In this document: positions 4,504-61,155 of the stretch, piece by piece
Layout of the letters: each line of letters begins with the position of its first letter
Numbering within the stretch: the first letter of the stretch is position 1
Assembly (NCBI GenBank): GCA_937870825.1
Contig: CALMZO010000252.1
Span: 1 to 64,000 of the forward strand
Source: an uncultured Chloroflexota bacterium
GTDB taxonomy: Bacteria > Chloroflexota > Anaerolineae > UBA4142 > SHND01
Direction of reading: 5' to 3'
Length of the DNA stretch: 64,000 nt
Made by a program: the position numbers and the translations under genes
The notes under the pieces: generated by a model
The model's input: only the letters and a program-made list of their open reading frames with translations
The model's database searches: none
Told to the model about the DNA's origin: nothing

Positions 4504-4585
4504 GCCTCTCGTCTCTCGCTTTTAACGCGCACAAGGCGCGCTGCTACGATGACGTTTCACGCTTCACGTTTCTCGTTTCTCGCCA
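4504..4585. repeat. GAGAAACG-family repeat reaching into the sorC 3' end
   Basis: The plus strand carries runs of CTCTCGTCTCTCGC and TTCACGTTTCTCGTTTCTCGCC, the complement of the GAGAAACG unit. It fills the sorC-epimerase spacer and supplies the last codons of sorC, giving the tail RNEKREA. It is the same family as at 30,708, 32,256, 39,590, 48,263 and 55,767. Confidence 0.7.
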
Positions 4586-5525
4586 AATCCAATACCACCG
4601 CCGCCGTCTCTTCATCCGTAATCAGCGTGTTGATATATTTACCGCGCAGCGCGGCGAGAATCGCTTTTGCCTTGTGTCGTCCCACCGCGACGCCTATCAC
4701 GCGCGGAATTTCGCGCAGCGCGTCGAGTCCCAGCGCCATCGTTCGTTCACTCAATTCCGTCGAAACAATTTCGCCGCGCGCGTCAAAATACTGCGAACAA
4801 ATTTCGCCGACGACATGTCCGCGTTTGAGAATTTGCAGTTGCGCGGCGGGCAACAATTTTTGGCGCACAATCGCGGAATTTTGTCGGTCCAGCGCGCCGA
4901 TGCCGACGAGCGCCAGCTGCGCGTGGCGCGCCAGATTCAACACATTGCGAATGGACGACTCGCGCAGCAGCGCGCGGCGCGTTTCGGGGTTTTCCACATA
5001 CAGCGGTGCGGTGAGATTGAAATAGTCGCCGCCGAGTTTTTGCGCGAGTTCGCGCGTCAGGTTGGCGTCGTCGTCTTCCGCGCCATTCACGCGCAACATG
5101 CCCACCAATTGCACGACGCGCGTTTCGCGGCGCGGCGTCGGCGTGAATTGTTCAATCGTCGCTTGAACGGTGCTGCCCCGACTGAGCGCAATCGTATTGC
5201 CGGGCGCAATGGATTCTTGGAGATAACGCGCGGCGAGACGCGCGATGTTCATTTTCGCGTCCAGCGCTTGGCGCGCACTCGCCCGCAATACGCGCGCGTC
5301 CCGTAACCCAAATTGTTCGCACAACTCGTCGGCGCGTTCCCGCGCGAGCATGAGCGGGAAATGAATCCGAATTTCGACGATGCCTTCGTTGCGCGCCTGA
5401 GTGAGCAGACGCGAAACGCTCGAACGCGAGACGCGCAGTTTGCGCGCAATCGCGCTTTGGTCCAGTCCTTTTTCAAAATACAGGTATGCCACTTGGGCGA
5501 GCAATTCGTGATGTGTGGGTTCCAT
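4557..5525 (-). CDS. SorC-family sugar-responsive transcriptional regulator
   Basis: 322 residues, the usual SorC/DeoR-type length. The N-terminus is a helix-turn-helix of the crp/sorC kind (KGLDQSAIARKLRVSRSSVSRLLTQARNEGIVEIRI, about residues 20-55). The rest is the sugar-phosphate-binding domain (GNTIALSRGSTVQATIEQF; LVGIGALDRQNS; GVAVGRHKAKAILAALRGKYINTLITDEETA). The frame stays open upstream, but the ATG at 5525 is chosen because it begins the domain directly; the upstream extension is promoter DNA. It heads a same-strand unit with an epimerase-like enzyme and a sugar importer, so it very likely controls that unit in response to a phosphorylated sugar. The C-terminal tail comes from a GAGAAACG-type repeat. 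Promoter and operator candidates lie at 5613-5657. Confidence 0.93.
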   Translation of the reverse strand: MEPTHHELLAQVAYLYFEKGLDQSAIARKLRVSRSSVSRLLTQARNEGIVEIRIHFPLMLARERADELCEQFGLRDARVLRASARQALDAKMNIARLAARYLQESIAPGNTIALSRGSTVQATIEQFTPTPRRETRVVQLVGMLRVNGAEDDDANLTRELAQKLGGDYFNLTAPLYVENPETRRALLRESSIRNVLNLARHAQLALVGIGALDRQNSAIVRQKLLPAAQLQILKRGHVVGEICSQYFDARGEIVSTELSERTMALGLDALREIPRVIGVAVGRHKAKAILAALRGKYINTLITDEETAAVVLDLARNEKREA

Positions 5526-5612
5526 CGCCAAAAAGAGGAATGGTGCATTGCCTCGCGGCGAACCGAGGGAGGTCACGACGAAACATCGCGTCTGAAATTT
5601 TTTGCAATGCAC

Positions 5613-5657
5613 TGCACAATTGTGCAAGAGTATGAACGAAAATGGGGCGATTGTCAA
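5613..5657 (-). promoter_or_regulatory. sorC promoter with palindromic operator at the start site
   Basis: Read on the minus strand: TTGACA (5657-5652), a 17-base spacer, then CATACT (5634-5629). The predicted start, about 7 bases further on, falls inside the perfect 14-bp palindrome TGCACAATTGTGCA (5626-5613). This geometry suits autorepression or inducer control by SorC. The -35 box overlaps the stop codon of the upstream DUF2236 gene. Confidence 0.7.
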
Positions 5658-6475
5658 GAGGGGTGAGAAGAGGGGAATTTCTGAAGGCGGTGTTCCATCG
5701 AATACGCTTTCGGATGAATCGCCAGTGCGCGCGGAATCTTGGGGCGCACTCGCCGCGCAATAGCTGCCAGATGGTCTAACCTGTTTTCGTCCGCCGCCGC
5801 CCATTCGTATTCGTACATTTGACGCACGCGCGGCGGCAGCAGTCCGATTCCGACAAAACTAAACCGCCGCGTCAAATGTCCGCGCAGCGTGGGAGCAAAC
5901 AACGCGTCCACAATGTCCCGCGCGTTTTGTGTCACATTTAGCGCGTCGCCGCACACCATCGCGTCCACGTACCGTTCAAACGCCGCGTACGTTTCGGGAA
6001 CCGCCGCGCGCGAAATTCCCAAGACACGCGCCAACCCTTTGCAGTCCTCATAGTACGCGCCCTTGTCCGCGAACGTCATCGGCGCGACAAATTTTTCATA
6101 CACCCGCAGCACGGAATCAATCAACGTCGCCAGGACCCAAAATTGCAAATCCGAATTGCGCGCGTCATAGACGACGAACGACGGAGGACGAACGACGAAC
6201 GCGCGGTCTCGCACTTGCGCATGGCATTTGTGAAAATGCTTGAGCGCGTCGCGCCTTTCGTCCGGCATCCCGAACGAAATTTCCGTCATCGTTTTCATCG
6301 TGCGATACAAACGTCCAAACGGGTCGCCGCGATAGTTGCTGTGTTGTGCGACGCCCGCCGCAATCGCCGGATGCGCGAGTTCGAGCAGCAGCGCGCGCGG
6401 ACCCGCGAGTGAAATCAGCCACTCGCGATTGACGCGCCAATACATGCTTTGCGGAGCAAACAGGGGGTGGGACAT
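5654..6475 (-). CDS. DUF2236 (MpaB/latex-clearing-like) domain protein
   Basis: 273 residues matching the DUF2236 family, whose characterised members include heme-dependent rubber oxygenase Lcp and the fungal MpaB. Visible features are VNREWLISLAGPRALLLELAHPAIAAGVAQHSNY at the N-terminus, DPFGRLYRTMKTM, and HFHKCHAQVRD in the middle, with histidines available for a cofactor. Residues FVVRPPSFVVYDAR are encoded by an ACGAACG-type repeat (6163-6205), seemingly inserted in frame. It follows a 37-codon membrane peptide gene by 37 bp on the same strand and may be co-transcribed with it. Its stop overlaps the sorC promoter. The actual reaction is unknown; family assignment is moderately firm. Confidence 0.75.
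   Translation of the reverse strand: MSHPLFAPQSMYWRVNREWLISLAGPRALLLELAHPAIAAGVAQHSNYRGDPFGRLYRTMKTMTEISFGMPDERRDALKHFHKCHAQVRDRAFVVRPPSFVVYDARNSDLQFWVLATLIDSVLRVYEKFVAPMTFADKGAYYEDCKGLARVLGISRAAVPETYAAFERYVDAMVCGDALNVTQNARDIVDALFAPTLRGHLTRRFSFVGIGLLPPRVRQMYEYEWAAADENRLDHLAAIARRVRPKIPRALAIHPKAYSMEHRLQKFPSSHPS
6163..6205. repeat. ACGAACG-family repeat inside the DUF2236 gene
   Basis: Imperfect copies of ACGAACG/ACGACGA lie within the coding region and keep the frame. On this strand they encode FVVRPPSFVV; the same family read on the other strand gives NDERR-type peptides in the ThyX-like gene at 26,522-26,577. Confidence 0.7.
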
Positions 6476-6512
6476 TTGCGCGAAACGAGAAACGAGAGGT
6501 GAGAAAAATGTG

Positions 6513-6626: not shown

Positions 6627-6756
6627 GTTGTCCTCCGCTTTGTGAGATACGCTTTTTCTTTTGAAACGATTCTAGACGCAATCTTGTTCCCTTGCGACGG
6701 TTCACGTCCAGCCACGCGCGCACTCGCGTGCTTGACAGTCAAGAATCCACAATGCA

Positions 6757-6850
6757 CAATGGACAATGCCAAATTCGCAATTTCGACTTTCAACTTTCAA
6801 CTTCCAACTTCCAATTTCCAATTTCCAATTTCCAATTTCCAACTTCCATC
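6757..6850. repeat. AAT/TTCCAA tandem repeat before the response regulator
   Basis: CAATGCACAATGGACAATGCC is followed by about nine copies of a 7-base unit of the kind CTTCCAA/TTTCCAA. The array ends five bases before the ATG of the response-regulator gene, so that gene has no GGAGG site and its 5' leader would be repeat RNA. A related AATTGCGAATT array lies at 32,315-32,400. Confidence 0.75.
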
Positions 6851-6854
6851 TTCC

Positions 6855-7589
6855 ATGAACCTCTTGCTCGTTGAAGACAATCCCAAACTCCGCGATGCGT
6901 TGCAGCGCGGACTCGAAGCGACGACGCGCGTTCGCGTTGTGTATGCCTGCGCGCGCGGCGAAGAGGCGCTCGCGTATTGTTTGGAAAATCCGCCCGACGC
7001 GATTTTGATGGATGTGCAGCTCGCGGACGAAATGAACGGGATTCAGTCTGCCGTTGCGATTCGCCGCGAATTTCCGCGCTTGCCCATTGTGTTTTATTCG
7101 ATTCAAGACGACGACGCGTACTATCGCGATTTTTTGCGTTCGGGCATTTTGAGTCATTACGCGTACGTGAAAAAATCAAATTACTTGTTGCCTGAAATGA
7201 TTGTCCCGTTATTGCAAGACGCGAAAAATGGGCGCAGCTTCATTGACCCCGAAATCGAAGCGCGTGTGCATACGGTTCGTGTGCAAGACGAACGGGACCC
7301 ATTGACGCTGCTCGAACCGAACGAGCAGCAAGTGGCAAAATTGTTGGCGCAAGGATTGAGCAATGAACAAATCGCCGCGCGCATGGGTTTCAAAGACCGC
7401 CGCACGATTGCGCGGACGAACGGACAAATTTACGCGGCGTGGAGTCTCGCCGACAACGCGACGGATGAAAAAATCGCGCGCACACGCGCAGCGCTCATCG
7501 TCCGCGCAAAACGTTTGCTGCAATGGGACGAACAGGGCAACCCGCTCGCACAGAATGAACGCGGGGAATGGGTATTTTGGGAGGGGTGA
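6855..7589 (+). CDS. NarL-like response regulator
   Basis: 244 residues. The receiver domain starts immediately (MNLLLVEDNPKLRDALQRGL), with the phospho-acceptor Asp in AILMDVQLADEMNG near residue 50. The C-terminal half holds a LuxR/NarL-like helix-turn-helix (LLEPNEQQVAKLLAQGLSNEQIAARMGFKDRRTIARTNGQIYAAW). The usual receiver Lys region reads YAYVKKSNYLLPEMI. A C-terminal extension ending NERGEWVFWEG is not part of the standard family. The ATG at 6855 is chosen because the receiver begins there, although only TTCCAA repeats precede it. It is followed after 72 bp by its likely partner kinase. The target genes are unknown. Confidence 0.9.
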   Translation: MNLLLVEDNPKLRDALQRGLEATTRVRVVYACARGEEALAYCLENPPDAILMDVQLADEMNGIQSAVAIRREFPRLPIVFYSIQDDDAYYRDFLRSGILSHYAYVKKSNYLLPEMIVPLLQDAKNGRSFIDPEIEARVHTVRVQDERDPLTLLEPNEQQVAKLLAQGLSNEQIAARMGFKDRRTIARTNGQIYAAWSLADNATDEKIARTRAALIVRAKRLLQWDEQGNPLAQNERGEWVFWEG

Positions 7590-7642
7590 GAGATGAAGGA
7601 TGAAGGATGAAAAAGAGTTTTGTATTCATCCCTCACCCCTCA
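7581..7642. repeat. GATGAAGG-family inverted repeat between regulator and kinase
   Basis: GAGGGGTGAGAGATGA (7581-7596) pairs with TCATCCCTCACCCCTC (7627-7642), 15 of 16 positions matching, around tandem GATGAAGG copies. It overlaps the response-regulator stop codon. It may attenuate transcription into the kinase gene. Related ATGAGGGATGAG copies lie at 30,674-30,690 and 40,870-40,900. Confidence 0.65.
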
Positions 7643-7661
7643 TCCTTTATCTTTTTTTGCG

Positions 7662-11071: not shown

Positions 11072-13576
11072 TCACATTCCCTGTTTTTCCTGTTCCAACA
11101 ATTTCCGCTTGAACACTTTGCCGACAAATGTTTTCGGCAGCGCGTCGCGAAATTCGATTTCGTCGGGGATGTTGGTTTCGGGCAGACGCGAACGCGCGAA
11201 CGCGAGAATTTCTTCAACTGTCGGTTTCTCCCCGCGTTTGGGAACAATGTACGCTTTGATTTTCTCGTTTCTCGTTTCTCGTTCCTCGCCCGTCGTTTCG
11301 TTGCGCTCGATAATTCCCAACGCCGCCGCTTCACTCACTTTCGGATGTTCGTACAATGCTTCTTCAATGTCGCGCGGATAAATCGTTTGCCCGTTTTTCG
11401 TAATCAAATCATTCTTGCGGTCAATGAACGTGAAATATCCCTCTTCGTCCATGCGCGCAATGTCGCCTGTGTAAAGCCATCCGTCGCGCAGCGCGCGCAG
11501 CGTCGCGTCGGAATTGTTCCAATACCCTTTCATGACTTGCGGACCGCGCACCACGAGCTCGCCAATTTCGCCAATCGGCAAATCCCAACCCGTGTGCATG
11601 TCCACAATTTTCGCGTCGGTGTCGGGCAGCGGCACGCCAATCGTTCCCGAAACCGATTCGCCGAAAATCGGATTCGCGTGCGTGACGGGACTGGCTTCCG
11701 TCAAACCGTACCCTTCCACCAATTTGCCGCGCGTGATTTTTTCAAATGCTTCTTGTACTTCTAACGGTAACGGCGCGGCGCCGCTCAAACACGCGCGAAT
11801 ACTTTTCACACCAAAATTGCGCGCATTCGGAAAATGATTGATGGCGAGAAAGATGCTCGGCACGCCGGGAAAAATCGTCGGGCGATTGCGTTGAATGGCT
11901 TCGAGCGTCGGACCGGTTTGCGGCGACGGCAGCAGCACCATCGCGGCGGCAATCGAAATCGCAAAATTCATGCACGTCGTCATCGCGTACGAATGCGCGA
12001 GGGGCAGGGCGCACAAAATTTTTTCTTGCGCTTCGGTCGTGTCGGGCATCCAGTGTCGCAACTGCATCGTGTTTGCCACCAAATTCGCGTGCGTGAGCAT
12101 GACGCCTTTCGGCAAATCGGTGGTACCCGTCGAGTATTGAATCAGCGCGAGGTCGTCGGGCGAAACATCTACCAGCGGCGTTTCTTTGGACGACTTGTCG
12201 AGCAATTGTTGAAAAAAGTGGATGCCGGGGGGGGGTGTTTTATCAAACAATGGATTTTTGGGAATGCGATTTTCCGCGCGCAGTGTGGCGCGGCGCACCG
12301 TCGAAACGTATTCGTCCAAGCCGGTGAGAATGACGTGCGCGACGTTGGTTTTGTTTTGAATTTGCGCGAGGAGTGGAAAACGTTCGTGCAATGCCACAAC
12401 GACGCGCGCGCCCGAGTCGCCGAGATGATGCAGCAATTCATTCGCGTCGGAAAGCGGATTCAAGTTGACGACAACCGCGCCCGCTTTTAGCGCGCCATAA
12501 TACGCAATCACAAACTGCGGACAGTTGGGCAAATAAATCGCGACGCGTTCGCCTTTTTTGATTCCCAACGCGGTGAGCGCATTCGCAAAACGATTCGCGT
12601 GGCGGCGCAAACCGCGATACGAAAGGGTGCTGTCGAAATAAATTGTCGCGATTGCGTTTGGAAAACGGCGGTCGGCGATGTCGAGAAAACGAAACAGCGG
12701 CTGCGTCGGATATTGCAGCGAGTACGGCACACCGTCTTCATAGTGCAAGAGCCACGGCCGCGCTTGGAGCATTTTGATATTTTCCGCGCGCCGTCCTTCG
12801 CGCCACGAAACGGATTCGCCGCCGATAAAACGTTGAATCGCGCGATTTACCGCATCGGCGCGTTCAAGCTGCACCATGTGCGCGCTCACGGGAATTTTTG
12901 CGAGCTGCGCGTTTGGAATTAAATCGGCAACCTCTTCGTACCGCGATTGTTCAAACACCAAATCACGCACGCCCAAAATGACCAGCGTCGGCACATGAAT
13001 CTGCGGCAGCACATCTTTGCCGTTCCACGTCGCCACGTTGTCGAGATACATGCGCTTCATCACAAACAGCGGCGCGTTAAATTTCACCGGAAGGTACGGG
13101 CGCAAGGGTTCCGCGTACTGCGTCGGCAAACGCGAAACAATATCTTGCGCGACGCCGAGTTTGAAACTGGACGCCGTGCCAATCAAAATCAATTTTTCGA
13201 CGCGCGTTTGATTGCGCAGTGTGAACGACGATGCAATCGCGCCGCCGAACGAATGACCGATGACGACGAATTGTTTTGGAAAATTCAATTGCTCGACGAT
13301 GCGCTCCAGATCGCTCACATGCTCTTGCATCGTGTAAAGCGAATCGGGATGGTCACTCAAACCGTGTCCGCGCAAATCGGGCGCGACGACGCGATATTTT
13401 TCGGCATACGCGGCGAGTTGTTTTTCCCACTGGAGCGCGTGTCCGCCAAAGCCATGCACGAACAAAATGGTATGCTCCGCGTCACGCGGTCCCGCGTCCA
13501 CGACAGAGAGACGAACGCGCGGCGAGATGGAAACGGAAATTTCAGTGCGGTAGAGGTCGAGGTCTAGTAGAGGCAT
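11072..13576 (-). CDS. Alpha/beta-hydrolase fused to AMP-forming acyl-CoA ligase
   Basis: 834 residues from the ATG at 13576. Residues 1-252 are an alpha/beta hydrolase: oxyanion motif HGFGG (41-45), nucleophile elbow GHSFGG (Ser109) and His233. From about residue 285 it is a class I adenylate-forming enzyme: nucleotide loop YSTGTTDLPKG (481-491), EGYGLTEASPV, the WLYTGDIARMDEEGYFTFIDR hinge region and the catalytic Lys in FVGKVFKRKLL near the end. A plausible role is to release a fatty acid from an ester and activate it to acyl-CoA in one polypeptide. Two oddities: nine consecutive C on the coding strand (12235-12227) encode a Pro run, and the loop EERETRNEKIKA carries a GAGAAACG repeat in frame. 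Confidence 0.92.
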   Translation of the reverse strand: MPLLDLDLYRTEISVSISPRVRLSVVDAGPRDAEHTILFVHGFGGHALQWEKQLAAYAEKYRVVAPDLRGHGLSDHPDSLYTMQEHVSDLERIVEQLNFPKQFVVIGHSFGGAIASSFTLRNQTRVEKLILIGTASSFKLGVAQDIVSRLPTQYAEPLRPYLPVKFNAPLFVMKRMYLDNVATWNGKDVLPQIHVPTLVILGVRDLVFEQSRYEEVADLIPNAQLAKIPVSAHMVQLERADAVNRAIQRFIGGESVSWREGRRAENIKMLQARPWLLHYEDGVPYSLQYPTQPLFRFLDIADRRFPNAIATIYFDSTLSYRGLRRHANRFANALTALGIKKGERVAIYLPNCPQFVIAYYGALKAGAVVVNLNPLSDANELLHHLGDSGARVVVALHERFPLLAQIQNKTNVAHVILTGLDEYVSTVRRATLRAENRIPKNPLFDKTPPPGIHFFQQLLDKSSKETPLVDVSPDDLALIQYSTGTTDLPKGVMLTHANLVANTMQLRHWMPDTTEAQEKILCALPLAHSYAMTTCMNFAISIAAAMVLLPSPQTGPTLEAIQRNRPTIFPGVPSIFLAINHFPNARNFGVKSIRACLSGAAPLPLEVQEAFEKITRGKLVEGYGLTEASPVTHANPIFGESVSGTIGVPLPDTDAKIVDMHTGWDLPIGEIGELVVRGPQVMKGYWNNSDATLRALRDGWLYTGDIARMDEEGYFTFIDRKNDLITKNGQTIYPRDIEEALYEHPKVSEAAALGIIERNETTGEERETRNEKIKAYIVPKRGEKPTVEEILAFARSRLPETNIPDEIEFRDALPKTFVGKVFKRKLLEQEKQGM

Positions 13577-13587
13577 GAGCAATCAGG

Positions 13588-13840
13588 GAAGAGCAATGGG
13601 CGATGAGCAATGAGCGTTGAGCGATGAGCAATGAGCGTTGAGCAATGAGCGTTGAGCGATGAGCAATGAGCGATGAGCAATGAGCGATGAGCAATGAGCG
13701 TTGAGCGATGAGCAATGAGCGTTGAGCAATGAGCGTTGAGCGATGAGCGATGAGCAATGAGCGATGAGCGATGAGCAATGAGCGATGAGCAATGAGCATT
13801 GAGCGATGAGCAATGAGCATTGAGCGTTGAGCGTTGAGTA
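13588..13840. repeat. Heptamer array NNTGAGC, over 30 copies
   Basis: Near-continuous tandem 7-base units of the form GATGAGC, AATGAGC, GTTGAGC and ATTGAGC occupy the spacer between the ligase-fusion gene and the four-helix-bundle gene. The TGAGC core is constant and the first two bases vary. On the minus strand every frame is open through most of it (LIAHRSL-type peptides), but nothing suggests translation. The same unit recurs at 14,250-14,290 and in the hairpin at 44,372-44,430. Confidence 0.93.
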
Positions 13841-38099: not shown

Positions 38100-38103
38100 G
38101 GTT

Positions 38104-39541: not shown

Positions 39542-39545
39542 AGTG

Positions 39546-40870: not shown

Positions 40871-40900
40871 GGGATGATGGATGAGAGATGAGGGATGAGT
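40870..40900. repeat. GGGATGAT/GAGGGATGAG spacer repeat
   Basis: GGGATGATGGATGAGAGATG and AGGGATGAG lie in the 68-bp spacer between moxR and the DUF58 gene, in the same family as 7,581-7,642 and 30,674-30,690. Confidence 0.6.
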
Positions 40901-40938
40901 AAAACAATCAATTCTACTCTGTCCTCAGTCCGCGTTAC

Positions 40939-43553: not shown

Positions 43554-44378
43554 ATGCACGAACTGGCACTGCAACACGTCCCGCTGGTTTTTTTGGATAC
43601 GGAAACCACCGGGCTCTCGCCGCGCTTTGGCGACCGAATGGTGGAACTTGCGCTGGCGCGTTTTCGCGGCGACGCAATGGAAAACTATTACACCACGCTC
43701 TTGAATCCCGAACGTTCGATTTCGCCGGGCGCGTCGCGCATTCACGGCATCACCGACCGCGATGTCCTCCACGCGCCGCGTTTTCGCGAGGTTGCCGCAC
43801 AAGTGCGCGCGGAATTGGAAGGTGTTGTAATTGTCGCGCACAATGCGCCATTTGATCTGGGATTCGTCGGGCATGAATTTCGTCTCGCGCGCGTTGCCCC
43901 GCCAAACAATTTGGTGGTCGATACCTTGACCCTCTTGCGCCAACATTTTTCGTTTCGTTCGAACGCCTTGCAAAAGGTGGCTGCCGCATTGGGCATCGAA
44001 CGCGAAACATCGCACCGCGCGTTGGCGGATGTATTGACCACACGCGCGGTGTTTGAATACATCCTCGAAGAATTGCGTCCGCAGACGCTCGGCGACTTGC
44101 TCGCAATGCAAGGCGGAACGATTTTGTGGGATGACGCGCCCGCGCCGCAAGCGTTGACCTTGCCGCCCGCGCTGGAAGAAGCGCTGCGCAGCCGCCGCAA
44201 ATTGTATTTGCACTATGTGGACGAGTTTGGAAGCAAAACGGAACGTTGGGTGAGCGTGATGGACGTGAATGCCCGCAAGGAATATATTTACATGCGCGCG
44301 TTTTGTCACTTGCGCGATGCGGAACGCTATTTTCGCTTGGACCGTGTGGTGGAAATGCGAGTGGAAGAAGAGCGTTGA
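43554..44378 (+). CDS. DEDDh 3'-5' exonuclease fused to a WYL-type domain
   Basis: 274 residues. The exonuclease part (1-175) has all motifs: VFLDTETTGL (Exo I), VVIVAHNAPFDLGFVGHE (Exo II) and SHRALADVLTTRAVFEYIL (Exo III with the His), as in DnaQ. The C-terminal 75 residues look like a WYL domain: RSRRKLYLHYVDEFGSKTER, followed by EYIYMRAFCHLRDAERYFRL and DRVVEMRVE, which match the pattern of WYL ligand-sensing folds. WYL domains bind nucleic acid or nucleotide ligands and often control defence or repair proteins. Its stop codon sits in the stem of a 22-bp hairpin. It is probably a repair or RNA/DNA-processing enzyme, not the replicative proofreader. Confidence 0.85.
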   Translation: MHELALQHVPLVFLDTETTGLSPRFGDRMVELALARFRGDAMENYYTTLLNPERSISPGASRIHGITDRDVLHAPRFREVAAQVRAELEGVVIVAHNAPFDLGFVGHEFRLARVAPPNNLVVDTLTLLRQHFSFRSNALQKVAAALGIERETSHRALADVLTTRAVFEYILEELRPQTLGDLLAMQGGTILWDDAPAPQALTLPPALEEALRSRRKLYLHYVDEFGSKTERWVSVMDVNARKEYIYMRAFCHLRDAERYFRLDRVVEMRVEEER

Positions 44379-44435
44379 GCATTGAGCATTGAGTAGGGTT
44401 ACTCGTTGCTCAATGCTCAATGCTCAACGCTTTTT
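44372..44435 (+). terminator. Hairpin terminator built of NNTGAGC heptamers
   Basis: 44372-44393 and 44409-44430 pair perfectly over 22 bp (GCGTTGAGCATTGAGC... and its complement), with a 15-base loop, followed by TTTTTG. The stop codon of the exonuclease gene (44376-44378) lies within the left arm. The next gene starts 4 bases past the T-run. Confidence 0.88.
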
Positions 44436-44438
44436 GTA

Positions 44439-46723: not shown

Positions 46724-46757
46724 CAAAAGCGCGTATCGCAAAGCGCGTATCGCAAAA
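46719..46757. repeat. AAGCGCGTATCGCAA direct repeat
   Basis: Three copies of AAGCGCGTAT, two with CGCAAA attached, begin inside the last codons of the transferase gene and reach the stop of the convergent membrane-protein gene. A short relative (CGCGTATCGCAAATCGC) is at 61,100-61,116. Confidence 0.7.
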
Positions 46758-48725
46758 TCACTTTAATTCGTACAACGTCAGCGCCTCGTTCGCATACAAA
46801 AACCTCGCGCGCGGATGCGTTTTCAAAAACGCATCTTGTAGAGTTCCATTCTCCACCACCACGAAATCAATTTCCCAAAAATCCAAAAACGCGTTGAGAA
46901 ATTTCGGGTCCGCGTTGGGTTCGTAAAAGCGGTCAATCTGCTGCCCGCGCGTATCTTCCGGTTTTTGCGCGTCGTTCGACAGCACCACCGCGCGATGTGT
47001 GTACGCGGGCGCATAGCGTGTGATGTCACGCGGGAGCAAAACATTCGCGGGCGCGTCCAAATTATTTTTCAATGTGAGCAGCATGTCTTGGACGGGCGCG
47101 GCGAGCGCGTGGTCTTCGGAAAAATTTCTAAAGGACCGCGCAAGGTTCATGTTCGTCAAAGCGAACGCTGCGCCCAGCGCCAACACCAACGCAAAGGCGA
47201 ATGCAACACGGCGCGTTTGAAACATCGCGCGCGCGTGAAAGAGAAAATCGGTGAGGACGAACGCGGCAGGCATGAGCCAGGTGATGCGCCACAATTGCCA
47301 CGGCGTCAACATTTCGCCGAGAAGACGCGCAGTGAAGGGATTGAACACCAGCGCGAGCGGCACAAGCGTACTGCCCCACAAAAATTGCACGCGCGCATCT
47401 TGACGCACGCGCGCAGCGGTCAACATCAAAACAAACAGCGACAGCAAGATGAACGCGTTCGCAACCAGCGCGGGGTCTGCGATATAAAACGGCGGCTGAA
47501 ATAACAAACGTCCTTCGCTCAAACGCACGTATGCTTCCACATCCGGCGTGTCCACGCGAAACACCGACGGCAATGTTGTTGCGCGAATCACGAGCGGAGA
47601 CAGTAACGCCGGCGCGCTTGCCAGCAACAAAAGCAGCCATCGTTTACGCGGAAACGGCGCGCGCGCAAGAAAATTGAACAGCGCGAATCCGCCGAGCGCA
47701 AGCACGAGCAAAAACAAACTGACGGGATGCACCCACAGTCCCGCAATGACCGCCAAGCCGTACGCGAACCACTGGCGCAATTTTCCCCCGCGCAAAAAAT
47801 TCCACGCGAACGAAAACGCGATGGGCAAAACAATTAGCCACACCAAAAATTTATCTTGCGCGCTGCGGACAAAAAAACCGCGTCCCCAACCGTCCGCATT
47901 CGCCGAGGTGACGTAAATGAGCAATTGAATCGCAACCGCAACGAGTGCGGCGCGCGTGTTTCCAAAAAATGTTTTCGCCCACGCGTATAAACTCAACAAT
48001 GCCAGCGGGGTCAACAGCGCGGGCAACACATCGCGCACCAGCTGCGCGACATCCGCGTTCAACCATTCGCCAAGAAATGCTTGCAAAAAAATCCAAACGT
48101 GAAACGCGTAGCGAATGCTATAGCGCGCTTCGGAAGCGGCGAGAATTTGGAACTGCGCGCTGCCCATCAACTGCTGCGTAACTTGGAGATAGCCCCAGTC
48201 GTCCGCGTCGCGCGGTCCGCGCCAGACGAGGAATGTGATGAGGAGACCTACGAGGGCGAGGATGAGTTGGGGAACGAGAAACGAGAAGCGAGAAGCGTCA
48301 AACGTGAAACTGCTTGTCCTGAAAGAAGTGAAGGATGAAACCTTGCGATTTTGCCGGAACGCCGCGACGGTCAACACCCAAAGCGTCACCACAAACACAA
48401 CGCGAAACGCGAACCAATTCGCGCCCACAAGCTGCAGCAGGGTCGCGGGGATTGCCCAAATGGCGAGACTGAACACGAAAAAAACGGGGAGACGCGCGAA
48501 TTGTCCCGGTTGCAAATCAAGTTTGAAAATTTTGTCGAGTAAATATCCCGGATAGAGAAAAACAAAAAACAAACCGAGCGCGGTTGCAAGCGGCGCGGGG
48601 AACACTGCCGGCGCGAATGCGAGCAGCGTCGCCGACAAGGAAAGTGCGCTCTGCGCGAGCGAATGCAAAAAAGCGCGCTGTTCTAGCGCGCCGGATTTTT
48701 TCGCCCTGTTCTTTGCCGGCGACAT
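46758..48725 (-). CDS. Large polytopic membrane protein, GT-C-like
   Basis: 655 residues, about 13 hydrophobic helices and a soluble C-terminus of about 130 residues. After helix 4 the sequence GPRDADDWGYLQVTQQLMGS resembles the acidic first-loop motif of GT-C glycosyltransferases, and HPVSLFLLVLALGGFALFNF and other helices follow. The C-terminal part (PEDTRGQQIDRFYEPNADPK, LYANEALTLYELK) resembles the tail domain of similar proteins. Residues KVSSFTSFRTSSFTFDASRF are encoded by a GAGAAACG-type repeat (48,263-48,345), inserted between helices. It lies 2 bp after a LysM/M23 lipoprotein gene on the same strand and converges on the glycan genes. A transferase role is an inference. Confidence 0.65.
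   Translation of the reverse strand: MSPAKNRAKKSGALEQRAFLHSLAQSALSLSATLLAFAPAVFPAPLATALGLFFVFLYPGYLLDKIFKLDLQPGQFARLPVFFVFSLAIWAIPATLLQLVGANWFAFRVVFVVTLWVLTVAAFRQNRKVSSFTSFRTSSFTFDASRFSFLVPQLILALVGLLITFLVWRGPRDADDWGYLQVTQQLMGSAQFQILAASEARYSIRYAFHVWIFLQAFLGEWLNADVAQLVRDVLPALLTPLALLSLYAWAKTFFGNTRAALVAVAIQLLIYVTSANADGWGRGFFVRSAQDKFLVWLIVLPIAFSFAWNFLRGGKLRQWFAYGLAVIAGLWVHPVSLFLLVLALGGFALFNFLARAPFPRKRWLLLLLASAPALLSPLVIRATTLPSVFRVDTPDVEAYVRLSEGRLLFQPPFYIADPALVANAFILLSLFVLMLTAARVRQDARVQFLWGSTLVPLALVFNPFTARLLGEMLTPWQLWRITWLMPAAFVLTDFLFHARAMFQTRRVAFAFALVLALGAAFALTNMNLARSFRNFSEDHALAAPVQDMLLTLKNNLDAPANVLLPRDITRYAPAYTHRAVVLSNDAQKPEDTRGQQIDRFYEPNADPKFLNAFLDFWEIDFVVVENGTLQDAFLKTHPRARFLYANEALTLYELK
48263..48345. 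repeat. GAGAAGCG/GAGAAACG repeat inside a membrane-protein gene
   Basis: GGAACGAGAAACGAGAAGCG and then AAGCGTCAAACGTGAAACTG, followed by GAAAGAAGTGAAGGATGAAAC, keep the reading frame and give a Ser/Phe-rich loop between predicted helices. Confidence 0.75.
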
Positions 48726-55090: not shown

Positions 55091-55148
55091 AAAAAAACCT
55101 TCGAGGTCGGCGTTCGTTAGAACGCATGAGACACTCGAAGGTTTTTTT
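55091..55148. terminator. Bidirectional terminator with nested hairpin
   Basis: AAAAAAACCTTCGAG (55091-55105) and CTCGAAGGTTTTTTT (55134-55148) are a perfect 15-bp pair with A-run and T-run ends. GCGTTC-GTTA-GAACGC in the loop makes a second hairpin. It follows the stop of the methyltransferase gene, and precedes the propeller-lipase gene, on the minus strand. Confidence 0.88.
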
Positions 55149-55977
55149 ATGGTTTGACCGCGCGTGTCGCCAAGTACGTTGGCATGTATTCGCTCAAGGT
55201 CATGTGGGAATGATAATCTTCGTACATGGCGACGAGATGAAAACCCGCGTCGAGTTGTCCGCCGATTTGGTCGGTGAGGGTGTGGCTGTGTTCGAGGGGC
55301 ATTCCTTCCGCAATCAATTTTTCCAATTCCGCTTTCGGCATGTGTTCGATATCCGAATACGGCAGTTTGTATTTCACCGTGAGCGGTTCTTTGCCGTCGA
55401 GCGCGTCGTAGGGAAACACGTACAAGACCGGATTGTTGAAACCCGCAAGCAGTACACCGCCGTGTCGCAAGACGCGAAATGCTTCGCGCCAAATCGGGCG
55501 CACTTGAGGGATAAACAAATTGGAGACGGGATGAAACACGAGGTCGAACGATTCGTCGGCGAGCATGGACAAATCGCGCGCATCTCCTTCAATCGTCACA
55601 ATTTCCAATCCTTCGCGTTCCGCGACAAAACGGTCGCGCTCCAATTGTTTGGGCGAATTGTCCAACACGGTAACGTGTGCGCCCGCCGCGGCGAAGGTTG
55701 GCGCTTGCTGTCCGCCCCCGGACGCCAAACACAAAATGTCATAGCCCGCGATCGAGTGAGTGGGGGAAACGTCAAATGTGAAACGTGAAACGTCATGCGT
55801 CAAACGTGAAGGCACACCAAACCATTCGCGCGGCACACTTTTTTGTTCGGTGAGCAAGACGCTCCATTCGCCGCGCCGCGCGTTGGCGATGATTTCGTGC
55901 GAAACGGGCTGTGTCCATGGATTGCCTTGTTCGACTTGAATGTCCCACGCGTCGCGGTTGTAACTTTGAATGTCCAT
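55147..55977 (-). CDS. Class I SAM-dependent methyltransferase
   Basis: 276 residues. Motif I ILCLASGGGQQAPTFAAAGA with the ribose-binding Asp in VTVLDNSPKQLERDR, then IEGDARDLSMLADESFDLVF (motifs II-III) and AFRVLRHGGVLLAGF. The C-terminus LDAGFHLVAMYEDYHSHMTL is typical of a group of small-molecule methyltransferases. Between the start and motif I lies RLTHDVSRFTFDVSPTHSIA, encoded by GTGAAACG-type repeat DNA (55,767-55,812) in frame, possibly a loop insertion. The substrate is unknown. The stop overlaps the bidirectional terminator. Confidence 0.88.
   Translation of the reverse strand: MDIQSYNRDAWDIQVEQGNPWTQPVSHEIIANARRGEWSVLLTEQKSVPREWFGVPSRLTHDVSRFTFDVSPTHSIAGYDILCLASGGGQQAPTFAAAGAHVTVLDNSPKQLERDRFVAEREGLEIVTIEGDARDLSMLADESFDLVFHPVSNLFIPQVRPIWREAFRVLRHGGVLLAGFNNPVLYVFPYDALDGKEPLTVKYKLPYSDIEHMPKAELEKLIAEGMPLEHSHTLTDQIGGQLDAGFHLVAMYEDYHSHMTLSEYMPTYLATRAVKP
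55767..55812. repeat. GTGAAACG repeat inside a methyltransferase gene
   Basis: GAAACGTCAAATGTGAAACG and TGAAACGTCATGCGTCAAACG are 9-base-period imperfect copies and keep the frame. Confidence 0.8.
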
Positions 55978-56094: not shown

Positions 56095-57627
56095 TTACGA
56101 TTGTGCGGTTGAATCATCCGCCGCACCATCACTCTCTTTTACTTGCGGCAAATTTTTGAGCGTCTTGATAATGTCCACGCCGGTCAGTGCTTCCACCGTT
56201 GCGGGAACTTGGGCGACGATGTTGGCGACATCTTGCGACACTTTGGACGCGCCCGCGCTGTCGCCGCCGTTGCTGATGACGACGATGCGGTCTGTTTTCG
56301 ACAACGGTTCGGCGATTGCCGCCGCAATTTTTGGCATCGCTTCGATGAGCTGTTGAATGATAGCGGCTTGCGTATATTCGCGCCACGCTTCCGCTTTTTT
56401 CTTCATCGCTTCGGCTTCGGCAAACCCTTGCGCTTGAATGACTTCGGCTTCGGCGAGACCGCGCGCTTTGTTCGCTTCGGCTTCCGCGAGACCAACGGCG
56501 CGCGTCACTTCGGCTTGCGCGAGCCCGCGCGATTTGTTTGCATCCGCTTCGCCTTGACCGATTTGGCGATTGCTTTCGGCTTGACCGGTCGCGCCGGTGA
56601 TGGCTTGATATTTGTTCGCGTCGGCAATCGTTTGAATGCGATATTGTTCGGCGGCGGCGGGTTTGCGAACCGTCGCTTCCAATTCTTTTTCGCGGCGCGC
56701 TACTTCTTGTTCCTGGACTTCGATTGCTTTGCGTTTTGCGATGACGTCAATTTGCACTTCTTGCTCTTTGACTTGTTGATTCGAAATGTTTTTCTGCAAA
56801 TCGTACGCAAGTTCTGCCGCCGCTTTTTGGCGATTCACTTCCGCGTCGTACGCGGCTTTTTGCACTTGATAATCCTTGTCCGATTCCGCGATTTTGGTTT
56901 GCGCGGCATAGCGCGCTTGTTCACCCTCTTGCTCCGCGCCCGCCGATTTGATTTTTGCATCGCGCGTTGCCAAAGCTTGCCCAATCGCCGCGTCGCGTTT
57001 TACTTCGGCAGTGCGCGCGACGCCGAGCGAATCGAGATATTGTTTGTCGTCGGTGATATTTTTGATGGTGAAGGAAATGATGCCGAGACCCATGTTCGCC
57101 ATATCGGACGCGGACACTTCTTGGACGCGTGTGGCGAATTGGTCGCGGTCACGATAAATTTCTTCGACGCTCAAGGTGCCGACAATCGCGCGCAAATGTC
57201 CTTCCAATGTTTGCAGCGCGACTTGTTTGATTTCCGCGACGTTTTTGGAAAGGAATTGTTCGGCGGCAGTGGCAATGGAAATTTCATCGCTTTTCACTTT
57301 GACTTGCGCGATGCCGTCCACCGTCACTTGAACGCCTTGCGCGGTGTACACGCGCGGCGTTTCCACCTCAATCGTCATCACTTCGAGTGACAAGCGTTTC
57401 GCCGTTTCGAGAACGGGAATGACGACGGTGCCGCCGCCTTTGACGATGCGATAGCCGATGCGTTCTTTTTTCCCTGTGATGGGGTCAATGCGTGTCGAGC
57501 CGCGTCCCGAAATTATCAACGCTTCGTTCGGTCCGACTTTTTGGTAGCGTCCCGAGATAACAATTGCCAAAAGTACAATGACAAAGATGACGGCAAAGAT
57601 GGCAATGACGGTGACAAGAGGATTCAT
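56095..57627 (-). CDS. Flotillin-like SPFH protein
   Basis: 510 residues. The ATG at 57627 has GGAGG 8 bases upstream. One N-terminal membrane segment (VTVIAIFAVIFVIVLLAIVI) precedes the SPFH domain (VGPNEALIISGRGSTRIDPI, LEVMTIEVETPRVYTAQGVQ, LEGHLRAIVGTLSVEEIYRD). A long coiled coil with AEAEANKARGLAEAEVIQAQ follows (about 280-440), the flotillin hallmark. It ends IAEPLSKTDRIVVISNGGDS. It organises membrane domains and partners the NfeD-like protein encoded just upstream. Confidence 0.95.
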   Translation of the reverse strand: MNPLVTVIAIFAVIFVIVLLAIVISGRYQKVGPNEALIISGRGSTRIDPITGKKERIGYRIVKGGGTVVIPVLETAKRLSLEVMTIEVETPRVYTAQGVQVTVDGIAQVKVKSDEISIATAAEQFLSKNVAEIKQVALQTLEGHLRAIVGTLSVEEIYRDRDQFATRVQEVSASDMANMGLGIISFTIKNITDDKQYLDSLGVARTAEVKRDAAIGQALATRDAKIKSAGAEQEGEQARYAAQTKIAESDKDYQVQKAAYDAEVNRQKAAAELAYDLQKNISNQQVKEQEVQIDVIAKRKAIEVQEQEVARREKELEATVRKPAAAEQYRIQTIADANKYQAITGATGQAESNRQIGQGEADANKSRGLAQAEVTRAVGLAEAEANKARGLAEAEVIQAQGFAEAEAMKKKAEAWREYTQAAIIQQLIEAMPKIAAAIAEPLSKTDRIVVISNGGDSAGASKVSQDVANIVAQVPATVEALTGVDIIKTLKNLPQVKESDGAADDSTAQS

Positions 57628-57639
57628 TTGAGACCTCCG

Positions 57640-57690
57640 GTAGTAGTGCAATAGTGCGATAGTTTGATAGTGGGGTAGTAATCAATATGC
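57640..57690. repeat. ATAGTGCGATAGT spacer repeat
   Basis: GTAGTGCAATAGTGCGATAG and then TTTGATAGTGGGGTAGTAATC lie in the 73-bp spacer between the NfeD-like and flotillin genes. A shorter copy (CACTATCGCACTAC) is at 61,146-61,160. Confidence 0.6.
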
Positions 57691-57700
57691 GATACGCGCT

Positions 57701-59157: not shown

Positions 59158-59217
59158 AAAAAAGGAAATAAGGGAAATAAAGGAAACAGGTAGCCAGACT
59201 CTTCTGACTACCTGTTA
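59158..59217 (-). terminator. Terminator after the alkyltransferase-like gene, with AAGGAAAT repeat tail
   Basis: AACAGGTAGCCAGA (59185-59198) pairs with TCTGACTACCTGTT (59203-59216) with one mismatch, directly after the stop at 59219 on the minus strand. The following bases on that strand are the T-rich complement of the AAGGAAATAAGGGAAAT repeat. Confidence 0.72.
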
Positions 59218-59218
59218 T

Positions 59219-59614
59219 TCAAAACAAACTCAACTGCGCCGCGTCATTTCCCTTGTTGCCCCTTATTTCCTTCACCAACGGCGGCGGTTGCTTGTAGCCA
59301 TTCGCTTCCAGCCATTCACCGTTGGGAATCCACCCGACCTCTGCAAAATCTACCCGTCCGTTTTCGTCAAACACAACGCCCTCTTCTTCAAGCCGCGCGC
59401 GTTGTTTTGAACCTGTCGCGCCGCCGAGCGAAATCGCGCCGCGCGCGTTGATGACGCGCTGCCATGGCACATCGTCAGGGCACGCGTTCATCGCGTCGCC
59501 GACATGCCGCATATCGCTCAAGCCCACCATCGCGCCGAGTTGTCCGTACGTGGTCACTTTGCCAAACGGAATCGCGCGGGCGAGCGCGTAAATTTTTTCA
59601 AACAAGTCGTTCAT
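59219..59614 (-). CDS. Alkyltransferase-like protein (ATL), DNA-binding
   Basis: 131 residues from the ATG at 59614. An O6-alkylguanine transferase fold: IYALARAIPFGKVTTYGQLG at the helix-turn-helix, MRHVGDAMNACPDDVPWQRV, GGATGSKQRARLEEEGVVF. The acceptor Cys of the PCHR motif is replaced by Trp51 (PWQR), the signature of ATL proteins, which bind O6-alkylguanine and hand the lesion to nucleotide excision repair without removing the alkyl group themselves. The C-terminal tail KEIRGNKGNDAAQLSLF is encoded by AAGGAAAT-type repeat DNA. It follows trpB2 on the same strand. Confidence 0.93.
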   Translation of the reverse strand: MNDLFEKIYALARAIPFGKVTTYGQLGAMVGLSDMRHVGDAMNACPDDVPWQRVINARGAISLGGATGSKQRARLEEEGVVFDENGRVDFAEVGWIPNGEWLEANGYKQPPPLVKEIRGNKGNDAAQLSLF

Positions 59615-59615
59615 C

Positions 59616-59695
59616 AGAGGACAGATGGCAGATAACAGAACACAGAATTCAGACAACACGAAATCTGTGTTCTGTGTTTTGGATTCTGTTATCTC
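59616..59695. repeat. AACAGAACACAGAATTC inverted repeat
   Basis: GATAACAGAA (59631-59640) pairs with TTCTGTTATC (59684-59693); the inner CACAGAATTC pairs roughly with AAATCTGTGTTCTGTG. The pair fills the spacer between the ATL and trpB2 genes and abuts the trpB2 stop, so it can act as a hairpin between them. Confidence 0.75.
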
Positions 59696-59696
59696 A

Positions 59697-61079
59697 TTAC
59701 GATGCCAGCTCCACCTTTGGCAGCATCGAAATGGCTTTTTCCACTTGTTCACGCGGGTATTCAAAATCTTGAAGTTGTCCGCGCATGTATGCGTCGTACC
59801 CCGCGAGGTCGAAATGACCGTGACCGCAGAGGTTGAACAAAATTGTTTTCTTGACGCCCTCTTCTTTTGCTTTTAACGCTTCTTGAATCACGACGCGAAT
59901 CGCGTGACCCGGTTCGGGCGCGGGGAGAATGCCCTCTTCGCGCGCAAACAACACGTTCGATTCAAAGACCGCGTTTTGTGCGACGGCAACCGCTTCTATC
60001 AAGCCCTCGTCGTACAATTTGCAAATGATGGGCGCCATGCCGTGATAGCGCAGCCCGCCCGCGTGAATCGGCGCGGGAATAAACGACGAACCGAGCGTGT
60101 ACATTTTTACGAGCGGAATAATTTGTCCCGTGTCGCCGAAATCGTACGTGTACACACCTTTCGTCAAAGAAGGCGCGGCAGTCGGTTCGGCGGCGATGAT
60201 GCGCGTATTCTTGCCGTTTTTCATTTTCTCGCGTACGAACGGCAGCGCAAGTCCCGCGAAATTTGAGCCGCCGCCCGCGCAGCCGACGACAATATCCGGA
60301 TATTCGCCCGCCATCTCCATCTGTTTCAACGCTTCTTGCCCGATAATCGTTTGGTGCATCAAGACATGATTCAAGACCGAACCGAGTGAATATTTTGTAT
60401 CTTCGCGCGGCGCGGCATCGGCAACTGCCTCACTAATCGCGAGTCCGAGCGAGCCGGTGTGTTCGGGGTCTTGGGCAAGAAATTTTTGTCCGATGGGATT
60501 GTCGGGCGAGGGAGATGAAACGACTTGCGCGCCATACGTTTCCATCAAAAAGCGGCGATACGGTTTCTGCCGGTACGAAATCGCCACCATGTACACTTTG
60601 CATTCAATGTCATACAACTTGCACGCAAAGGCGAGCGCGCTGCCCCATTGTCCCGCGCCCGTTTCGGTGGTGATGCGTTTCGTCCCTTCCATTTTGTTGT
60701 AATACGCTTGCGGCACGGCGGTATTCGGTTTGTGCGAACCCGATGGGGAAACCCCTTCGTACTTGAAATAAATGTGCGCGGGCGTGCCTAACGCTTTTTC
60801 CAATCGCCGCGCGCGAATTAACGGCGTCGGACGCCACAACTTGTACATCTCGCGCACTTCATCGGGAATGTCCACGTAACTCGTCGCGTACGGACCGACG
60901 CTTGCTTCCTGCATAATCAATTGCATCGGAAACAACGGCGCGAGGTCGGCAGGTCCAATCGGCTGCCCGGTGCCGGGATGAATCACGGGCGGCAGCGGCG
61001 TGGCAAAATCATTTTGGATGTTGTACCACGTCGTCGGCATTTCGCTTTCTTGCAAAACGTATTTGGTTTGCTCGGACAT
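59697..61079 (-). CDS. trpB2: Tryptophan synthase beta chain, TrpB2 type
   Basis: 460 residues. GGAGG precedes the ATG at 61079. The N-terminus [20 protein letters not shown] and the insert typical of TrpB2, [20 protein letters not shown], lead to the PLP lysine in [20 protein letters not shown]. The phosphate loop [17 protein letters not shown] (GGGSN) and the C-terminal [20 protein letters not shown] are intact. TrpB2 enzymes make tryptophan from indole and serine without the alpha subunit, often as indole scavengers or salvage enzymes. A trpA gene lies about 2 kb upstream; its usual partner trpB1 is not in view. The gene follows trpS by 77 bp. Confidence 0.94.
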
Positions 61080-61096
61080 ATTCCCTCCTTTGGGTT

Positions 61097-61155
61097 GTTC
61101 GCGTATCGCAAATCGCACAACTGAACACTGAATACTGATTACTGCTCACTATCGC
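61097..61155. repeat. Repeat-filled spacer between trpS and trpB2
   Basis: GCGTATCGCAAATCGC, ACTGAACACTGAATACTGATTAC and CTCACTATCGCACTAC, three families (also at 46,724, 39,546/41,908 and 57,640), stand side by side in this spacer. Confidence 0.65.

Follow-up and report, generated by a model that had tools for sequence, protein, structure and literature searches.

Seven-base tandem repeats and hairpins in gene spacers of an uncultured Anaerolineae bacterium and its relatives

What writes short tandem repeats of many different sequences into the spacers between the genes of a single bacterial genome, and do they serve a purpose there? The question is raised by contig CALMZO010000252.1 (83,934 bases) of an uncultured Chloroflexota bacterium of the class Anaerolineae (assembly GCA_937870825.1), of which bases 1-64,000, hereafter the window, were analysed. 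An initial annotation of the window, made from the letters alone, had described a network of imperfect tandem units of 6-9 bases in its spacers. We found that the main unit is seven bases long, that about a quarter of such heptad arrays pair with an inverted partner, typically as a hairpin running from one stop codon to shortly before the next start codon, and that units mostly differ between orthologous spacers of sister species. These observations point to a DNA-level mutational process in seven-base steps as the probable, if by no means secure, source of the arrays, with products surviving in tolerant DNA and their location reflecting that tolerance, not a selected function.

The draft genome that holds the window (G000) comprises 7.23 Mb in 446 contigs. 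It was compared within a set of 40 genomes, in which the order is represented by G000-G019 (five same-genus sister species, G001-G005, and 14 genomes of a second family) and the outgroups by G020-G039. Genes were placed with our own codon-model script, whose starts may be wrong by a few codons; the gene order around the key spacers is backed by homologues in G001-G005. Larger counts for G000 refer to a 1.016-Mb sample of 61 stretches, which is not neutral: 18 were picked for contigs with a GAGAAAC array, most of another 20 lie on contigs met in earlier searches, and 20 contigs were arbitrary. An arbitrary-contig set of 21 stretches (242 kb, including the remainder of the window's contig) was used for period counts.

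Period, position and hairpin anatomy

In the window, 13 three-unit arrays of period 7 were found, compared with a mean of 0.0 in 10 second-order Markov shuffles, so the arrays exceed shuffled sequence, the outcome on which the initial annotation had staked its case. Periods 4-6, 8, 10, 12 and 13 gave no such array and periods 9, 11 and 15 one each; the seven arrays of period 14 were mostly repeats of period-7 rows. With a laxer score (at least 9), period 7 gave 31 arrays, and periods 5, 6, 8, 9, 10, 11 and 13 gave 1, 6, 2, 6, 3, 1 and 1, respectively. Similarly, the arbitrary contigs contained 22 arrays of period 7, five of period 8 and three of period 9, together with 8 and 9 of periods 12 and 15 that were mostly coding save one. 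Shuffles of these contigs probably hold an artefact (stretches of N turned into poly-A, adding about two arrays at every period above 5), which leaves the window figures unaffected.

The tandem arrays are real and lie where they had been placed; of the proposed range of 6-9 bases, seven is the unit and periods 8 and 9 are minor. Five families (GAGAAACG, AAATCGGA, AATCAGTA, GATGAAGG and GCGAATTG) are indeed arrays, but of 7-base units that had been read one base too long. ATAGTGCG (57,644-57,679) has a genuine unit of 8 bases and AAGGAAAT (59,158-59,186) one of 9. One family, GTAGGGGC, had to be given up as an array: its 20 matches with at most one mismatch are what chance gives (shuffles 15.5 +/- 3.8; 13 of 100 reach 20). 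Two copies, at 1842-1849 and 1895-1902, form an inverted pair with 45 bases between them and no tandem array. A cluster of period 9-10 repeats in sister species G001 (G001:C64:1-20000, L114; 11 and 12 rows, possibly at the same places) was unlike the rest.

Arrays were concentrated between genes. Nine of the 13 in the window and 17 of the 22 on arbitrary contigs were mostly non-coding, although non-coding DNA makes up only 12% and 20% of these sequences. The arrays thus belong to the class of heptameric simple repeats, having 7-base units above chance and an intergenic over-representation. That arrays fill spacers holds for most of them; about one third (11 of 31 in the window at score at least 9) are mostly coding. 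Arrays occurred in 148 of 626 co-directional spacers and in 13 of 134 others (8 of 67 divergent, 5 of 67 convergent). Units sit head to tail, without the unique spacers that separate CRISPR repeats (no cas search was made). Different families do lie side by side in one spacer, as had been described, at about 30,673-30,744, 39,549-39,675 and 61,099-61,150.

The hairpin role suggested in the initial annotation is supported insofar as about a quarter of the arrays form hairpins. Among 254 arrays of the 1.016-Mb sample (score at least 9), 62 had an inverted partner of score at least 12 within 120 bp, compared with 6 of 254 when flanks of other arrays were used and 0 of 254 with shuffled flanks (Fisher p 2e-14). 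At a cut-off of 11, 41 hairpins were obtained, of which 35 lay between co-directional genes, one between divergent and none between convergent genes, and five inside predicted genes; this co-directional placement had p = 0.003 relative to spacers of 30 nucleotides (nt) or more, of which 441 were co-directional and 118 were not. Typically, the 5' arm starts at the upstream stop codon or close to it and the 3' arm ends shortly before the next start codon; a handful of the 35 carry a long tail ahead of the start. The remark that arrays run up to start and stop codons is borne out, and it proved the key to hairpin anatomy. Paired arrays of the window include the following (fold z, predicted RNA folding relative to shuffles).

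7581-7655, plus strand: heptad hairpin with 5' arm GAGGGGTGAGAGATGAA and 3' arm TTCATCCCTCACCCCTC, fold z -3.6; between two plus-strand genes, with the stop at 7589 and the next gene from 7662.
27606-27669, minus strand: weak heptad hairpin TGATTTATGATT / AATCATAAATCA, fold z -2.3.
32318-32400, no strand assigned: heptad pair ATTGCGA / AATTCGC in a divergent spacer.
38105-38177, minus strand: heptad hairpin GACGAAC / TTCGTCA, fold z -4.7; its loop holds the stop codon of gene 38138-39622, and gene 36492-38099 follows.
40872-40899, minus strand: GGATGAG array in spacer 40871-40938; weak hairpin, fold z about -2.0 to -2.5.
44370-44431, plus strand: 23-bp perfect heptad hairpin GAGCATT / AATGCTC, predicted RNA energy -51.5 kcal/mol, z -13.0; its 5' arm holds the stop codon TGA of gene 43554-44378, and the next ATG is at 44439.
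59615-59694, minus strand: heptad hairpin CAGATGA / TCTGTGT between genes 59697-61079 and 59219-59614, fold z -4.8.

The same period emerged from a scan of order spacers for inverted repeats that was blind to tandem units. Of 836 co-directional spacers 259 held a hairpin, as did 61 of the 90 convergent and 10 of the 84 divergent ones. In 211 co-directional hairpins with arms of at least 16 bases, self-match of the arms was 0.517 at lag 7 and 0.546 at lag 14, compared with 0.337 at lag 8 and 0.22-0.29 at other lags between 3 and 15. The 45 convergent hairpins gave 0.320 at lag 7 and 0.290 at lag 14, and the ten divergent ones 0.368, 0.414 and 0.415 at lags 7, 14 and 8, respectively; outgroup spacers (n = 31) were too few for comparison, probably because the gene model was trained on G000. 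In 96 co-directional heptad hairpins, the 5' arm started a median of -1 nt from the stop codon (interquartile range -4 to 4), overlapping it in 47, and the 3' arm ended a median of 12 nt before the start (7 to 22). These hairpins covered a median of 79% of the spacer, whereas other hairpins covered 46%.

Intrinsic termination was considered for these hairpins and rejected: TTTT was found within 8 nt of the 3' arm in 4% of the 96 (9% in a wider stretch), and none of the 41 lay in a convergent spacer. The hairpin at 44,370-44,431, which is followed by TTTTT, is an exception that alone could pass for a terminator. Searches against Rfam at gathering scores gave no match, and no tRNAs were found. 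Purine bias on one strand, also claimed at the outset, applies to the 5' arm of heptad hairpins (73 versus 22) and not to spacer arrays overall, of which 126 of 253 were purine-rich on the sense strand. Stop codons were also examined as seeds of arrays and dropped, since stops were about equally frequent in sense and antisense units (108 and 93 of 253). Besides, Shine-Dalgarno words preceded 0.151 of starts in the order versus 0.127 in the reversed control (756 starts as placed by our gene script, spacers of 15-200 nt); for 75 starts closely after a heptad hairpin, both values were 0.067.

Other spacer arrays of the window, several of them one-sided, unpaired or composite, are:

6739-6856, plus strand: array drifting AATGCAC - AATTCGC - ACTTTCA - ACTTCCA - ATTTCCA, reaching the predicted start 6855.
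13593-13838, minus strand: longest array, about 35 units of TGAGCRA, one-sided, with higher-order repeats of 21 and 35.
About 30675-30743, minus strand: GGATGAA and GAGAAAC arrays side by side, unpaired, in a 127-nt spacer, fold z -1.3.
39549-39675, minus strand: composite array CAGTAAT - GAGAGAC/GAGAAAC - ACGTTAA crossing a gene junction.
57644-57679, minus strand: 8-base array TAGTGCGA in the 73-nt spacer 57,628-57,700.
61099-61150, minus strand: array drifting ATCGCAA to ACTGAAT/ACTGATT, unpaired.

Turnover and vocabulary of the units

The initial annotation had held that identical spacers in close relatives would speak against it; orthologous spacers were found to differ in both length and motif. 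In 11 spacers, an array of score at least 9 was present in G000 and in at least one sister species, and an alignable unit was kept in a single one, 59,615-59,696 (tables compared by eye); its hairpin is retained in G005, and the G004 spacer has only 11 nt. Elsewhere the units differed, sometimes in both arms. In spacer 44,379-44,438, for example, the GAGCATT/AATGCTC hairpin of G000 corresponds to a GTGACGG/CCCGTCA hairpin in G001 and, by eye, to a hairpin of 8-base units in G005, with none in G002-G004. Spacer 38,100-38,137 has GACGAAC in G000 and a TCAGTGA/ACTGATA hairpin in G001. Spacer 40,871-40,938 carries GGATGAG in G000, TCAATGC/TTGTGCA in G005, CAGTTAT/ACTGATT in G001 and ATGAACA in G004; fold z values there were -2.5 (G000), -3.0 (G005), -5.6 (G001), -5.4 (G004), -0.1 (G003) and -2.1 (G002). 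Similarly, spacer 27,590-27,661 has AAATCAT in G000, AACTTCC in G001 and AAAATCC in G002, and the site of the weak hairpin at 27606-27669 holds arrays of 19 and 21 units in G001 and G002 with motifs unlike those of G000.

Whole arrays are also gained. Spacer 57,628-57,700 has 73 nt with an 8-base array in G000, 1 nt in G001, G003 and G005, and 30 nt in G004. At several spacers one species has arrays and others have nothing, e.g., 30,647-30,773, for which none was seen in G002-G005. The G001 orthologue of this spacer (L076) is about 2.7 kb long and has a 30-unit GAGACGT array near one end. At the 39549-39675 junction, the genes of several relatives overlap at their inferred ends, to judge from rough coordinates. 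At 31113-31144, all five sisters have a 4-base ATGA stop/start overlap where G000 has a 32-nt spacer free of heptads.

Some arrays lie inside genes and supply codons there, as the initial annotation had envisaged. Examples in the window, all on the minus strand, are:

11261-11295, minus strand: GAGAAAC units in gene 11072-13576.
26523-26576, minus strand: CGTTCGT units in the ThyX-like protein gene 25826-27589.
32253-32282, minus strand: GAGAAAC units near the start of predicted gene 31713-32300.
48273-48310, minus strand: GAGAAAC units in gene 46758-48668.
55767-55810, minus strand: GAAACGT in gene 55147-55977.

In the ThyX-like protein, the array encodes NDERRTTNDERRMTNDER, at about residues 339-356, ahead of the Thy1 match at 406-551. 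Among relatives, neither the length nor the repeat of this stretch is constant: it is related but shorter in G005, consists of other residues in G002-G004, and is a longer repeat with a different unit in G001. Arrays deep inside G000 genes mostly had units free of stop codons in the sense direction (33 of 37, versus 145 of 253 order spacer arrays; Fisher p 1e-4), a comparison between two array sets that differ in score cut-off and genomes.

The unit sequences are numerous and yet restricted. In the 1.016-Mb sample, 159 arrays of score at least 12 fell into 59 unit classes, 24 of which were seen at least twice and 35 once, whereas random units of equal number would give about 148 classes. The claim that each family recurs at distant places therefore stands for the 24 and for sharing far above chance in general, and not for the 35 single classes. 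The commonest were AAACGAG (23), AACGACG (18), AATGACG (13) and AAACGTC (13). Same-class pairs numbered 636, compared with 11.2 expected and a maximum of 23 in 200 simulations, in a sample partly picked for GAGAAAC. The sequence GAAACGAGAAACGA occurred 47 times in the G000 genome and its reversed control not at all. Across 141 classes, TA and CC steps were rare and GA, CG and AA frequent; self-complementarity was slightly below that of shuffles (2.49 versus 2.73, sd 0.10). A word, GCGTATCGCA, recurs in or beside three arrays (46711-46756, 57628-57700 and 61099-61150).

Spectra were partly genome-specific and partly common. AAACGAG and AACGACG accounted for 25 and 23 of 216 G000 arrays (partly picked sample), and ACCCGTC for 8 of 62 in G001. 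Arrays of three GAGAAAC units occurred in only 3 of 298 genomes of the class. Between the two families, 43 of 96 second-family arrays had a first-family class, compared with 11.0 expected for letter-shuffled units (maximum 21 in 1000 shuffles). Three exact TAACTGA units in a row were found in 14 of the 298 class genomes, from families f1, f16, f23, f29, f33 and f37 (reversed control 0).

Of the 13 genomes sampled from the order, 12 contained arrays. In the genus, their density (per 100 kb, score at least 12) was 14.2 in G000 (11.4 without stretches L025-L043), 25.4 in G001, 10.6 in G002, 6.2 in G003, 0 in G004 (46 kb) and 13.0 in G005. The second family gave 50 (G006), 21.7 (G008), 7.5 (G009), 20 (G010), 15 (G011), 31.2 (G018) and 17.5 (G019). 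The sample was as small as 20 kb in some genomes, and some stretches had been selected for orthology to the window; a G012 stretch that read as N was left out. Twelve outgroup genomes first gave one array in about 211 kb and, with more of G034 and G029, two in 331 kb.

Mutational process, selected structure and other explanations

One main period with many motifs in a single genome agrees with the earlier suggestion that one process creates the arrays. Because the arrays combine that single period and variety of motifs with in-register drift inside single arrays (6,739-6,856; 61,099-61,150), higher-order repeats and gain of spacer length, replication slippage in 7-base steps may be the process that duplicates the units and lets them drift. 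Slippage alone makes no inverted partner; therefore a further step, fold-back template switching, is suggested, in which the nascent strand would copy its own complementary arm, so that an array becomes a palindrome with the same units in both arms. Such switching is known from quasipalindrome mutation in E. coli and yeast. It would also account for orthologous hairpins with the same new unit in both arms, since one arm is copied into the other. We infer that the process acts widely and that its products are kept only where DNA tolerates them, selection removing the rest. Short co-directional spacers would be the main tolerant DNA, in which arrays may extend from the stop codon as far as the margin of the following start region; protein linkers and ends may be tolerant as well, mainly for units without sense stop codons. 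Fast motif turnover would then leave orthologous spacers mostly with unrelated units.

Several observations weigh against this account. The mutation event itself was never directly observed, and no responsible enzyme was found. Three quarters of the arrays have no strong inverted partner. Pure local slippage explains neither the motif classes common to different genomes nor the TAACTGA arrays of 14 of the 298 class genomes; indeed, a restricted vocabulary is predicted neither by slippage nor by selection as formulated here. Besides, selection for a structure could be behind the stop-to-start hairpins that several of the six species have at 40871-40938. This leads to the possible, if rather doubtful, alternative that the hairpins are selected RNA elements that tune the operon, heptads being an easy way to rebuild a hairpin. 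Little Shine-Dalgarno signal was seen in the order (hardly above the reversed control), so initiation may depend on local structure; the hairpin may keep the downstream start free, couple it to the upstream stop, or block 3'-5' decay. A hairpin folding away the whole spacer would join stop and start or keep the start open. The sign of such an effect is not obvious, because structure just after a stop codon correlates with lower coupling, according to the part of a translational-coupling review available to us (PMC12548453). The exact stop-to-start fit and the predominance of co-directional over convergent placement favour selected RNA elements, as do fold z values of -2.1 or lower in five of six species at 40871-40938 and the larger share of orthologous spacers with z below -3 among those with heptads (8 of 19, versus 10 of 53 without). 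However, a stricter hairpin score recognised a hairpin there in only three of six species (G005, G001 and G004), and many orthologous spacers of similar length were unstructured. Co-directional spacers of G000 fold alike with or without arrays (z below -2 in 0.47 of 102 and 0.43 of 237), most arrays are one-sided, and part of the longest (13,577-13,720) shows less structure than its shuffles do (z +2.9). Other hairpins likewise have a purine-rich 5' arm (115 versus 40), and mismatches in the arms showed no excess of G.U (80) over A.C (108), a weak test in that a terminator-like control (18 versus 15) had none either.

A dispersing element, in which an enzyme (REP/RAYT-like, a reverse transcriptase, or ectopic template switching) copies bare arrays or palindromes and so gives each genome its dominant motifs, is quite unlikely; ectopic template switching between arrays is conceivable. 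The skewed genome-specific spectra and the rarity of GAGAAAC arrays in the class fit it, but flanks are not shared: they matched in 3 of 818 same-family array pairs, with seven matches among different-family pairs. Repetitive extragenic palindromic (REP) sequences consist of one conserved sequence plus a RAYT transposase. The present arrays resemble REP/REPIN in being palindromic and extragenic; their arms are many unrelated sequences, with no single conserved palindrome family. Y1_Tnp, matched without telling RAYTs from other Y1 transposases, does not follow the arrays, being unmatched in array-bearing G011 and present in 16 of 20 outgroup genomes (drafts). A link with a reverse transcriptase, for which the initial annotation had asked, failed as well, RVT_1 being unmatched in array-rich G018, where absence from a draft is not certain. 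With flanks almost never in common, the arrays do not behave as insertion sequences or MITEs, which would have conserved ends or a shared body at different sites; they differ from REPs as well.

Two candidates from DNA repair were also rejected. Loss of mismatch repair is contradicted by MutS1, which was above cut-off in 39 of the 40 genomes. SbcD was above the model cut-off in one of 20 order genomes (G005, the exception within the order; C143) and in 18 of 20 outgroups. No genome reached the curated cut-off for SbcC, for which matches of at least 100 bits were found in 18 of 20 outgroups (not G023 or G034) and one of 20 order genomes (G005). What the order genomes other than G005 had was at most a remote Mre11-like match (up to about 53 bits), and G007, G011, G014 and G017 had none. 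Loss of the hairpin nuclease SbcCD could thus have let palindromic repeats accumulate, and inverted repeats of score at least 15 are commoner in the order (264 in 1,828 kb, 70 with lag-7 arms) than in outgroups (23 in 331 kb, one with such arms); six TAACTGA loci from genomes of family f29 with SbcD lack an inverted partner scoring at least 12. As a cause of the arrays the loss is nevertheless very improbable in view of the counter-examples, though it may have a part in the formation of palindromes alone. G005 has SbcD together with arrays and hairpins, G034 lacks SbcD and has one array and no inverted repeat in 100 kb, and SbcD is present in 10 of 12 TAACTGA-bearing genomes outside the order; a single loss on the tree explains the correlation. 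Assembly artefact or metagenome contamination is extremely improbable: G000 is a draft with 5.11% contamination, yet the genes on either side of the arrays are syntenic in five other genomes, and the pattern recurs in 12 of the 13 genomes sampled from the order.

Returning to a mutational origin in seven-base steps, a bolder version is conceivable and would join it with function, and we regard it as unlikely. A dedicated or preferred DNA-writing activity would rewrite operon spacers in 7-base words, making an array, copying it back as an arm, and later overwriting both with a new word from a restricted vocabulary. The vocabulary would be common to the families of the order (TAACTGA extending to Beggiatoaceae, Cyanobacteria and Bacteroidetes), and the hairpins would be used as sequence-free operon spacers by bacteria whose Shine-Dalgarno signal is slight.

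Relation to known heptamer repeats and minor features

Several elements of this picture are already known. In Xanthomonas (GGGAATC) and Nostoc (GGGGA(T/C)T), heptameric repeats are mostly intergenic, between same-direction genes and nearer the 5' open reading frame; two Xanthomonas genomes have 70 and 75 inverted heptamer pairs, 16% lie between convergent genes, and a G-quadruplex was proposed, as described in the accessible sections of that report (PMC4692102). Heptamer repeats, intergenic bias, inverted pairs and same-direction placement are thus established in Xanthomonas and are features common to both systems. In the same sections, however, one motif is studied per genome (PMC4692102), whereas G000 has 59 classes in the 1-Mb sample, units that mostly differ between species, and hairpins from stop to start; nor is there a single G-rich motif of the quadruplex type here, the leading classes being AAACGAG and AACGACG.

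Direct TAACTGA repeats occur in Beggiatoaceae, Cyanobacteria and Bacteroidetes, with horizontal transfer proposed and one inverted case in 170 sets, and many of the sets lie close before start codons (available part of PMC4679880). The same unit class (AACTGAT) is present in the order. The published repeats are a single motif (PMC4679880, same part), whereas here it is one of many heptads, hairpin-forming in G001 and not in the six f29 loci. Its occurrence here amid dozens of other heptads offers an alternative to horizontal spread. In the Nostoc tRNA-Leu intron, degenerate heptanucleotide repeats fold together as one hairpin, vary in copy number and fall into two motif classes, at one intronic locus as far as the sections available to us go (PMC3488679), whereas the order has many spacers genome-wide. 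An excess of heptamers among long prokaryotic simple sequence repeats, with slippage over a 7-nt polymerase contact proposed, was reported by Mrazek et al. 2007; as cited in the available parts of PMC4679880 and PMC4692102, that work describes no hairpin anatomy or orthologous motif turnover. The tandem repeats of Borgs are also fast-evolving, arise independently and occur within proteins too; they differ in belonging to archaeal extrachromosomal elements (available part of PMC9879509).

A literature search, which left subscription journals mostly uncovered, found no report of heptads in Chloroflexota or Anaerolineae and none of motif replacement in both arms. The bacterial heptamer excess is known yet unexplained, and the order offers many motifs per genome and both-arm motif differences between species. 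With five sister species in largely the same gene order, the 7-base step and arm copying become measurable at single sites. If the hairpins matter for translation, they would be a spacing of operon genes that keeps shape, not sequence.

Some minor observations may be added. A search for plasmids with a TAACTGA array found nothing, perhaps since BLAST masks such repeats. The protein of gene 36492-38099, next to the hairpin at 38105-38177, has three named relatives, all from Anaerolineae, with 41-43% identity. In addition, a 33-base tandem repeat of 3.8 copies (56405-56531) was observed inside predicted gene 56095-57627.

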